Origin: Neisseria animalis
GTDB taxonomy: Bacteria; Pseudomonadota; Gammaproteobacteria; Burkholderiales; Neisseriaceae
DNA length: 64,000 nt
NCBI RefSeq assembly: GCF_900636515.1
Contig: NZ_LR134287.1
Span: forward strand, 2,046,001-2,110,000
Reading direction: 5' to 3'
Shown here: positions 351 through 10,012 of the stretch, piece by piece
Position numbering within the stretch: the first letter of the stretch is position 1
How the letters are laid out: the number at the start of each line of letters is the position of its first letter
Notes under the pieces: generated by a model
The model's input: the letters and a program-made list of their open reading frames with translations, nothing else
The model's database searches: none
Told to the model about the DNA's origin: nothing
Translations under genes and position numbers: made by a program

Positions 351-1082
351 CTATTCGGATAAAAGGCGTGCTTTAAACATCGCGTCTTTCATCTGGCGGA
401 CGGCTTCGGGCAAGCCCAAAAATACCGCTTGGGAAATCAGCGAATGGCCGATGTTCAATTCCTTAATGGCAGGAATTTTGGCAATCGGCGCAACATTGTG
501 TATCGTCAGACCGTGCCCCGCGTTGACCACCAAGCCCAAGCCGTCTGCAAAATCCGCACCCTCTTCAATCCGGCGCAACTGCCGCGCGCGCTCTTCGTGG
601 TTCGGCGCATCGGCATACGCGCCGGTATGCAGCTCAATCACCGGCGCACCGACTTCTTTTGCCGCGCGGATTTGCGCTTCATCGGCATCGATAAACAAAG
701 ACACCCGAATCCCGGCGCGGGTAAGGGTTTGCGTAAATTCGGCAATTTTCTCCTGCTGCGCCAATACGTCCAAACCGCCTTCCGTGGTAACTTCCTGACG
801 TTTTTCCGGCACAATGCAGACATCTTGCGGCTGCACGGCAAGCGCGTTGTCCAGCATTTCTTCTGTTAATGCCATTTCCAGATTCAAACGTGTGCGGATC
901 GCGTTTTTCACCGCAAACACATCGGCATCTTTGATGTGGCGGCGGTCTTCGCGCAAATGCAGGGTAATCAGATCCGCACCGTGGGTTTCCGCAATCAGCG
1001 CGGCCTCAACCGGGCTGGGATAAGTGGTTCCGCGTGCATTACGCAGGGTGGCGACATGGTCGATATTGACACCTAACAGCAT
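351..1082 (-). CDS. pdxJ: Pyridoxine 5'-phosphate synthase PdxJ
   Basis: This 243-residue cytoplasmic enzyme makes pyridoxine 5'-phosphate from 3-amino-2-oxopropyl phosphate and deoxyxylulose 5-phosphate, the last ring-forming step of DXP-dependent vitamin B6 synthesis. Family motifs are visible: [10 protein letters not shown] at 6-15, [10 protein letters not shown] at 41-50 and NAGHGL at 187-192. H42, E69 and H190 match the E. coli catalytic His45, Glu72 and His193. The ATG at 1082 is chosen because AAGGA lies just upstream and the family begins [16 protein letters not shown] longer reading into the CREE to 1244 would add only repeat-encoded residues. The gene stands alone, with a nested CREE pair starting 77 bp upstream of its start. 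Confidence 0.96.
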
Positions 1083-1158: not shown

Positions 1159-1370
1159 TATAGTCGAATAAAATATAGTCGAATAAAATAAGAATGAGAC
1201 AAGGCAGCGAAGCCGCAGACAGTACACATAGTACGGCAAGGCAAAGCAACGATGTATCATTCTTATTTTAAATGACTATAAAAATGATACAAGGCAGCAA
1301 AGCCGCAGACAGTACAAATAGTACGGCAAGGCGAAGCAACGCTGTATCATTTTTATTTTAAATGACTATA
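1159..1370 (+). repeat. Older CREE interrupted by a younger CREE
   Basis: Bases 1159-1173 are the left end of one CREE and 1281-1370 are its remaining 90 bp, diverged from the consensus. Between them sits an intact CREE. Left end (15) plus one TA (2) plus right part (90) equals 107 bp, exactly the family length. This shows insertion at TA with TA duplication. Confidence 0.88.
1174..1280 (+). repeat. CREE, 107 bp, nested inside another CREE
   Basis: An intact copy running from TATAGTCGAATAAAATAAG to the inverted ATTT-type end. It differs from consensus by one visible base (AACGATGTATC instead of AACGCTGTATC). It lies within the split older copy at 1159-1370. Confidence 0.92.
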
Positions 1371-1403: not shown

Positions 1404-3575
1404 CTACATTTCCTGCGGATCGACATCGACACTCCAGCGGATATGACGGTCGCTGTCCTGCTTCAAAACCTGAAGCCACAAATCCAACGCATAATGCAGG
1501 TTTTTCCGCGAAGAAGATTCCAAGAAAATTTGGGCGCGTTCCCGCTCGGCAAGGCGCACCATCAGCATGGGCGCGGCACCAAACTGGGTAACGCCTTCGG
1601 GCAGCAGCGGCTCGACAAGGGCTTTGATACCGTTCAGAAAATCCATGGCCTGAGCCACATTCGGCGCATCGGCGCGAATGGCGGTCTGAAAGCCGAACGG
1701 CGGCATGTCGAACAATTTGCGTTCTGCCAGCTCCCTGTCGGCAAACAGGCGGTAGTCCTGCATCTTCACCGCTGAAAATACGGGGTGTTCGGGAAGCTGG
1801 GTCTGAATCAGCACCCTGCCGGCTTTATCGGCACGCCCCGCCCTGCCCGATACCTGCATCAGCTCGGCAAACAGGCGTTCCGGCGCGCGGAAGTCAGAAC
1901 TGTACAAACTGCCGTCTGCATTTAACACCACCACCAGATTCAGGCGCGCGAAATCATGCCCTTTGGCAATCATCTGCGTACCGACCAATATATCCACGCC
2001 GCCTTCGCGGATACGGCGGTACAGCTCCGCCCAATCGTCTTTGTGGGCGGTACTGTCCCTGTCCACGCGCACCACTGCCGCCTGCGGCAACAGGTTTCTC
2101 AACATTTCTTCGACACGCTGCGTACCCTGCCCGACGGCGGTCAAATCCTGATTGCCGCAATCGGGACATTTATACGGCACGGGTTCGCGGTGGTCGCAAT
2201 GGTGGCAGCGTAATTGGCGCACGCGGCGGTGCAACACCATTTTGGCAGAGCAGTTCGGGCAGCCGAAAGTATATCCGCAATCTCCGCAAAACAGCGCGGG
2301 CGAAAAACCGCGCCGGTTCAGATACACCAAGGTCATGCCGCCGTTGCGGTAGTTTTCCTGAATCAGCGACAATGCCTGCGGCGAAAAACCGTTGTCCAAT
2401 TGCAGACGGCCTACATTCAGAATATCCACCTGCGGCAGCTTGGCGGCGGTGTGGGCGCGCTGCGGCAACTCCAGTAAACGGTATGCGCCGTTCTGCGCCT
2501 TGTGCCAGCTTTCCAAACTCGGCGTAGCGCTGCCCAAAACAATCGGGCAGGCTGCCTGCTTCGCCCGCCAAACAGCCAAATCCCGCGCATGATAACGCAA
2601 TTCGTTGTCCTGCTTGAACGAAGAATCGTGTTCCTCGTCTACCACAACCAGCCCGACATCGGGCAGCGGCGCAAATACGGACAAGCGCGTGCCGATAATC
2701 AGCTTCGCCTGCCCCAACATGGCGCGCAAATAATCCTGCGTGCGCCGGCCGGCCGCGGTCTGGCTGTGCAGCACGGCAGTCGGCACATCGGCAAACCGCG
2801 CTTCCACGCGTTTGAGCAGTTGCGGCGTCAGATTGATTTCGGGCAGCAAAAACAAGACCTGCCGGCCTGCTGCCAAAACCTTTGCCATCACATCAAAATA
2901 AACTTCGGTTTTGCCGCTGCCGGTTACGCCGTACAGCAAAAACGGTTGGAAACGCCCGAATGCCGTCTGTATTTCGGCCGATGCGTTTTGTTGCGCTTCG
3001 TTCAGGCAATATGCAGACGGCCTGAGCAAGGGTTTGGCCGCCGATTGGGCGGTTATCCACCCCTGCTGCGCCCATTCTTCCAACAGTTTTCCCGCTTGGC
3101 TGTTAATCTGTTTCAGCGCGGGCAGCGGCAGGCCGTCCGTATCGGCCAACGCCTGCCACAACGCGGATTTTTTATGGAAACGTGCGGGCGGCGGCGTTTG
3201 CATTCTGCCCGTTTCGCTCAAACCGTAAAACAGCGGCGGCTCGGGCAGCACAACAGGCTTGGCGTCTTTCAAGCCCTGCGGCAGCGCGGCGGCAACCGCC
3301 TGCCCGAGCGGATAATGATAATAACGCGCCGCAAAAGCCATCAGCTTGCGCCAAGCCTCCGGCAACGGCGGTTCGGCGGTAAAGGCCGTCTGTATTTTTC
3401 GGATTTTCGCCGTATCGATGTCGGGCGTTACGCCGGTCGCCCAAACGATGCCTGTCTGCGGTTTGCCGCGAAACGGTACGACCACGCGCACGCCTTCGGC
3501 CAACGCCGTGTCGTGTGCGTAGGTCAAGATACCGTCCGAAAGCGGTACGTTCAAAGCGATATGGTGGTAAATCAT
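1404..3575 (-). CDS. priA: Primosomal replication helicase PriA
   Basis: PriA (723 residues) is the 3'-5' DNA helicase that recognises stalled forks and reloads the replisome. An N-terminal DNA-binding region is followed by a helicase core with Walker A GVTGSGKT at 216-223 and the DEEH box at 313-316. Eight zinc-binding cysteines lie at 430, 433, 439, 442, 457, 460, 470 and 473. Length and architecture match the full-length family (E. coli about 732). The start is the ATG at 3575, giving MIYHHIALNVPLSDG. The gene is monocistronic in this window. The track upstream (3576-4290) carries repeats and no clear partner gene. Confidence 0.97.
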   Translation of the reverse strand: MIYHHIALNVPLSDGILTYAHDTALAEGVRVVVPFRGKPQTGIVWATGVTPDIDTAKIRKIQTAFTAEPPLPEAWRKLMAFAARYYHYPLGQAVAAALPQGLKDAKPVVLPEPPLFYGLSETGRMQTPPPARFHKKSALWQALADTDGLPLPALKQINSQAGKLLEEWAQQGWITAQSAAKPLLRPSAYCLNEAQQNASAEIQTAFGRFQPFLLYGVTGSGKTEVYFDVMAKVLAAGRQVLFLLPEINLTPQLLKRVEARFADVPTAVLHSQTAAGRRTQDYLRAMLGQAKLIIGTRLSVFAPLPDVGLVVVDEEHDSSFKQDNELRYHARDLAVWRAKQAACPIVLGSATPSLESWHKAQNGAYRLLELPQRAHTAAKLPQVDILNVGRLQLDNGFSPQALSLIQENYRNGGMTLVYLNRRGFSPALFCGDCGYTFGCPNCSAKMVLHRRVRQLRCHHCDHREPVPYKCPDCGNQDLTAVGQGTQRVEEMLRNLLPQAAVVRVDRDSTAHKDDWAELYRRIREGGVDILVGTQMIAKGHDFARLNLVVVLNADGSLYSSDFRAPERLFAELMQVSGRAGRADKAGRVLIQTQLPEHPVFSAVKMQDYRLFADRELAERKLFDMPPFGFQTAIRADAPNVAQAMDFLNGIKALVEPLLPEGVTQFGAAPMLMVRLAERERAQIFLESSSRKNLHYALDLWLQVLKQDSDRHIRWSVDVDPQEM

Positions 3576-9686: not shown

Positions 9687-9798
9687 ATACCGCAGCCAAA
9701 ACAACAAGCGGCACAAGGCGGATTTCAAACGGCATACCGCCCTGCCAAGGCCGTCTGCAAATCAAACCGTGAGAAATATATAATCGGATAACACAAAA

Positions 9799-9905
9799 TA
9801 TAGTCGAATAAAATAAGAATGAGACAAGGCAGCGAAGCCGCAGACAGTACACATAGTACGGCAAGGCAAAGCAACGCTGTATCATTCTTATTTTAAATGA
9901 CTATA
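9799..9905 (+). repeat. CREE, 107 bp, between rfbB and rfbA
   Basis: Intact consensus copy with terminal TA on both sides. It separates rfbB from rfbA. Confidence 0.92.
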
Positions 9906-9906
9906 A

Positions 9907-10012
9907 AACCATGCCGCAAAGCCGCAGGCAGTACGAATCGGCAAACTTACGTTCAACAGTTTAATCAAGCCCTCTCTTTAAGTAAGGCAAAGCAGCACGG
10001 TATCATTTTGTG
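9907..10012 (+). repeat. Degenerate long-form CREE relic
   Basis: It starts with a CREE-like word (GCAAAGCCGCAGGCAGTAC), has about 60 bp of extra core, then CTCTCTTTAAGTAAGGCAAAG and CGGTATCATTTTG. The extra core resembles the internal segment of the classical full-length Correia element as I recall it. The ends have decayed. Confidence 0.55.

Follow-up and report, generated by a model that had tools for sequence, protein, structure and literature searches.

What kind of event produced the 212-bp segment, with non-CREE flanks on both sides, that lies between priA and pdxJ in the window, the 64,000-nt stretch of the Neisseria animalis genome analysed here? The first-pass annotation had described it as the two parts of one Correia element (CREE) around an intact CREE, and this description proved correct to the base (Table 1). 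It had also read the arrangement as a TA-targeted insertion, with relative ages for the two elements.

Anatomy of the nest and its repeat family

Once the intact element is taken out and a single TA is left, the host parts rejoin as 15 + TA + 90 = 107 bp, exactly as had been claimed. In the alignment that the annotation had put forward as a check on the host part, the rejoined host matches the family consensus over its full length, with six substitutions and no gaps. The insert starts with TATAG and finishes with CTATA, and its sole difference from the consensus is C79A, also present in four other copies of the half-genome sample. Host and insert are thus both 107 bp long with TATAG...CTATA bounds, within the 105-107 bp CREE form. 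Four TATAG...CTATA spans can be drawn at the nest (122, 107, 212 and 197 bp) and only the one that coincides with the insert has the family length.

Table 1. Features of the nest and of the IS630-family copies. Positions are those of the window unless G000, the genome of the window, is given.
Feature	Position	Strand	Basis
Left part of host CREE, 15 bp	1159..1173	+	sequence; the 15 bases are identical in main and minor subfamilies
Inserted intact 107-bp CREE, main family, one substitution (C79A)	1174..1280	+	sequence and family alignment
Duplicated target TA, two copies	1174-1175 and 1279-1280
Right part of host CREE, 90 bp, with six subfamily bases	1281..1370	+	alignment, subfamily search
pdxJ, downstream of the nest	351..1082	-	Pfam PF03740, E 8.1e-103
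priA, upstream of the nest	1404..3575	-	Pfam, PriA domains
IS630 copy, locus L206	G000: 2188389-2191781
IS630 copy, locus L207	G000: 1503728-1507120
IS630 copy, locus L208	G000: 695864-699256
IS630 copy, locus L209	G000: 1930933-1934325
IS630 copy, locus L210	G000: 639172-642522

The junction pattern TATAGTCNNNTAAAATATAGTC occurs at two places in the whole genome, the nest and position 696892, and its backwards control at none; the one pattern searched in IMG/VR had no matches. At 696892 only the 15-bp CREE-end repeat is present, the 90-bp remainder is absent and an IS630 copy lies within the same CREE end. In one relative (G009), the only genome with directly adjacent pdxJ and priA matches among the matches listed, no CREE stands between the two genes, which makes it an empty locus and not an empty host CREE.

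A folding prediction for minus-strand RNA of the nest gives a pair of long hairpins at -69.7 kcal/mol, against a mean of -35.7 for shuffles (z -9.94). RNase III processing, published for other Correia-bearing transcripts (PMC10969869), would be possible for such an RNA. Scans of positions 1060-1460 returned no sigma-70-like promoter (0.9 expected) and one terminator-like site (0.7 expected), and no Rfam family reached its cut-off in the window.

We file these repeats as a CREE subfamily on account of their core, length and TA. Allowing up to three mismatches, the core pattern is found 301 times in the genome of the window (2,240,945 bp), and it is present in 38 of the 46 genus genomes searched. 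The repeats share with the CREEs of pathogenic Neisseria (Correia or NEMIS) the length of 107 bp, the TATAG...CTATA ends, the TA target, the core and a similar copy number, which averages 127 in gonococci and 249 in meningococci (PMC5039591). In contrast, their inverted repeat TATAGTCGAATAAAATAAGAATGAGACA differs from the Correia repeat tatagtggattaacaaaaaccggtacgg published for the pathogens (PMC5039591), the tip TATAGT being the same and the remainder different. The core ends of gonococcal CREEs have been given as CCGGTACGG and TCAGGACAA (PMC2649163), and for the 107-bp Neisseria repeat earlier work had described TA termini and an empty site that is shorter by 105 bp (PMC2229807).

Unlike the CREEs of the pathogens, the copies of this genome are much alike. 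The half-genome sample (1,174,310 bases scanned) held 159 full copies; two were too close to the end of a stretch and eight of the other 157 were not 107 bp long, which left 149 for distances. Among these, 82 show no difference from the consensus, 42 have one change (124 of 149 within one base) and 25 have two to eight, a tightness that we read as a recent expansion. At 153 insertion sites A and T predominate among the three bases that flank the TA on either side, and the nest site AAAA[TA]AAAA agrees with this preference. As a separate observation, the flanks of the sample contain inverted GCCGTCTG repeats, which we take to be uptake-sequence-like terminators, and several CREEs begin right behind the T-run of such a repeat.

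Host subfamily and origin of the nest

Is the host an old copy? It had been called more diverged than the insert and hence already old. As a distance to the main consensus the first statement holds (six changes against one), and six of the 149 sampled copies equal or exceed the host in this distance. As a statement on age it misleads. All six host bases (19A, 25T, 36A, 54A, 70G and 89T) are common to three further copies at other loci of the genome (71030, 519377 and 1528923), whose printed flanks are unrelated. A search for the host-core pattern in the 46 genomes, with up to three mismatches, found ten places, all in the genome of the window. Four of them, the host and these three copies, have at most two mismatches, and in the other six, which have three mismatches, most diagnostic bases are absent. 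The host is one base away from two of its sister copies and two bases from the third; the three sisters also carry 53G, and the copy at 1528923 has one change more. The spread within this group is about that within the main family. Because the six differences recur at unrelated loci, the host is, as judged from shared bases, a member of a four-copy minor subfamily and not a decayed old copy. Aligning the CREE copies, the check proposed at the outset, therefore puts the insert among the young main-family copies, as expected, and the host in the minor subfamily instead of among old copies.

The age of the host copy itself cannot be read from its haplotype. In the inverted repeat, position 19 lies opposite position 89 and the two change jointly, 25T matches the facing end, and the two host ends are identical at 25 of 28 positions, one more than in the consensus (24 of 28). 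Other species have 54A and 70G in their CREEs too, so some of the host haplotype may go back to an ancestor, and an early split of the host lineage is possible.

We propose that a 107-bp Correia-type MITE of the minor subfamily was resident between priA and pdxJ, and that a copy of the abundant young subfamily would then have inserted at the TA of host positions 16-17, within the left inverted repeat of the host, duplicating this TA and presumably served by a transposase acting in trans. Nested TA insertion of one CREE into another is very probable because the exact 15 + TA + 90 = 107 bp goes with a gapless full-length alignment, because the three sister copies are uninterrupted and read through the target site with a single TA, because insert and host belong to different subfamilies, because the 153 insertions favour A or T beside the TA as at the nest site, and because similar nests with mixed end types recur in another genome (G034). 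TA duplication is seen when the interrupted host is set against the one-TA form of its three sisters, and again in the G034 nests. The reading as a TA-targeted insertion with TA duplication is thus well supported, as is the relative order claimed for the two elements, host first and insert later.

Some evidence counts against the insertion reading. The left 15 bp of the host fit either subfamily. Length variants of gonococcal CREEs have been attributed to deletions and tandem repeat duplications (PMC2649163), and the nest can indeed be written as a 15-mer twice followed by a 90-mer twice, as if slippage or unequal crossover in one CREE had produced 15-bp and 90-bp duplications side by side, followed by point mutation. 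The locus at 696892, with its 15-bp end repeat and no 90-bp repeat, could be taken for half of such a process, but this form arises equally well from a collapsed nest. Two adjacent duplications would be required against one insertion. The second 90-mer has six bases common to three unrelated loci, whereas the first is the main-family haplotype with C79A, a change that other copies share; two haplotypes mean two sources and not one duplicated element. On the strength of these two subfamily haplotypes we reject tandem duplication, which we hold to be very improbable.

About as improbable is recombination, either between two separate CREEs or as an exchange after nesting, for example by transformation, as the source of the present host haplotype. 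Siddique reportedly described recombinational switching of Correia subtypes in 2011, and one G034 element (L266, see below) resembles the product of a nest collapsed through its core. A crossover between whole CREEs, however, does not by itself give 15-bp and 90-bp parts that bracket a 107-bp element at a TA, and none of the six diagnostic bases is missing from the host haplotype. An assembly artefact of a family with around 300 similar repeats in the genome is the least credible reading of all, since the assembly is a single contig rated 100% complete, the 212-bp nest has non-CREE flanks on both sides and similar nests exist in another genome.

Frequency and forms of nests

Nested insertion, as we read the pdxJ-priA locus, is not confined to it. 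Counting took in elements with clean TATA ends and 200-bp flanks, which kept 153 of 167 full matches in the half-genome sample and 37 of 50 in the sample of the relative G034. When flanks were rejoined, four of the 153 lay inside a CREE-like element: the pdxJ-priA nest and three in degenerate hosts. Two of the four are weak matches (E 0.0059 and 0.0008; cut-off 0.01). The second of these weak matches is also in the window (9780-9960), where a main-family CREE (9799-9905) sits in a degenerate CREE-like element. The G034 sample gave seven nested elements out of 37, with a CREE-like search model that had one empty row and missed three G034 elements intended for it. In all seven, as we read the sequences, the end type of the inner element is not that of the outer one, and the outer element continues across one TA. 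Five of the insertions fall at the central TA of the outer hairpin and two in an inverted repeat. The central TA, in the hairpin loop, is a possible hot spot from these five (L263, L266, L273 and L276).

Do CREEs seek out CREEs? The CREE-like share of TA sites outside long ORFs is 17.4% (2080/11975) in the G000 sample and 24.4% (740/3036) in the G034 sample, a control that is generous in counting young copies as targets. Nest counts are no higher than this TA abundance predicts, and special targeting of CREEs by CREEs is not needed.

Other arrangements accompany the nests. In each of the two samples five further elements stand end to end with a CREE-like element. At G000:1603496-1603812 (L191) three CREEs lie head to tail, neighbours sharing the terminal TA, and at G034:C29:7050-7750 (L256) three CREEs are apparently nested one in another, each with its own end type. 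The 122-bp L266 (G034:C12, reverse strand from 11698) starts with the left end of one CREE type, goes on with a left end and core of a second and closes with a right end of the first; it has the appearance of a nest that collapsed through the core, with the ends of two CREE types joined. We infer that nests collapse via their direct repeats.

In pneumococcus, small repeats within other repeats have been recovered by joining flanks (BOX, RUP and SPRITE; PMC3049150). These nests have the same repeat-in-repeat form, in other families and another organism. No CREE-in-CREE nest was described in the accessible part of the literature searched.

An IS630-family element as candidate mover

Which transposase could have acted in trans? 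An IS630-family insertion sequence lies beside one CREE of this genome and is present in five copies (Table 1), each 905 bp between its ends as cut. Four copies are one to seven bases apart; the fifth lies 307-312 of 905 positions away by ungapped count, and the match to its transposase region is broken in two. The transposase domains lie in two overlapping frames, with PF01710 (helix-turn-helix) and PF13358 (DDE) above their cut-offs; NF033545 stays under its cut-off, at 86.4 and 25 of 100 bits for frames scored apart. The overlap has an A7 run, and frameshifting at such an overlap occurs in IS630 elements.

Two copies touch CREE ends directly. That of L208 splits a CREE end at a TA, with TA duplication (TATAGTCATT[TA]AAATAAG), and another abuts the terminal TA of a CREE. 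The first 28 bases of both IS630 ends match both CREE ends of the genome at 43 of 56 positions, a score reached by none of 2000 shuffles that kept the first six bases. When the 905-bp elements of G000, G006, G018 and G036 are matched to the CREE ends of G000, G028, G006/N. bergeri and G034 type C, zero or one of 2000 shuffles does as well; for a second end type of N. bergeri the number is zero to four. The ends of the 905-bp type carry an inner GGAC on one side and GTAC on the opposite side, which lie as far from the tip as AGGACA and AGTACG do in the CREE ends of N. bergeri. Those of G000, G006 and G036 show no match to G034 type D ends (696-1927 of 2000 shuffles as good), whereas the IS630 element of G038, in two copies, matches seven type D elements, one collapsed chimera included (0-16 of 2000). 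In G043 and G010 the insertion sequences are 914-915 bp long, and their best matches are the G000 and G028 end types. The specificity is nevertheless not clean at the level of these comparisons, because one G038 copy also matches the N. bergeri type (0/2000) and the G000 type (7/2000).

The number of CREEs varies in the same sense. Genomes with a close IS630 match (14) have a median of 44 CREE core matches against 6 in the 32 others (Mann-Whitney p = 0.0014, or 0.0030 without G000, kinship ignored), in a grouping drawn from IS630 match identities in which several of the 14 have fragments only. Against a role as mover stands G043, where many IS630 copies go with a single CREE core match. Profile searches gave no DDE_3 match in G034, G023 and G004, with 384, 129 and 35 CREE core matches; in such genomes the partner may have been lost, or it may be something else.

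Transposase domains, insertion into and abutment on CREE ends, end similarity and the association with CREE number together make the 905-bp element a candidate autonomous partner, a mover acting on CREE ends, that we favour by a narrow margin. With similarly modest confidence, we suggest that CREEs across Neisseria may be mobilised in trans by resident IS630-family elements, with end types that follow the IS630 type and a core that does not change. The precedent is RUP of Streptococcus pneumoniae, a 107-bp non-autonomous repeat with a TA target and ends like those of the resident IS630-family element IS630-Spn1 (PMC2229807), which a 2007 review presents as the exception where a link to an insertion sequence was found (PMC2229807). 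We propose the same relation for CREE, on end similarity, shared target and co-occurrence; unlike in the RUP case, three CREE-bearing relatives have no DDE_3 match. No Correia-IS630 link and no named partner was found in the accessible parts of the literature searched, which included PMC2229807, PMC3049150, PMC9330008, PMC10969869, PMC2581405, PMC2874221, PMC2649163 and PMC5039591.

The nest between priA and pdxJ preserves TA-targeted insertion in clear natural form, and the sister copies of its host serve as the uninterrupted control. It also cautions against reading age from consensus distance, for the supposedly old host forms part of a separate small subfamily. Of greater interest is the putative IS630 link: given an IS630-family element that has matching ends and the same target, what moves CREEs can be put to a direct test. 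If CREEs are indeed mobilised by IS630 types, the nest in the window would be one product of that system.
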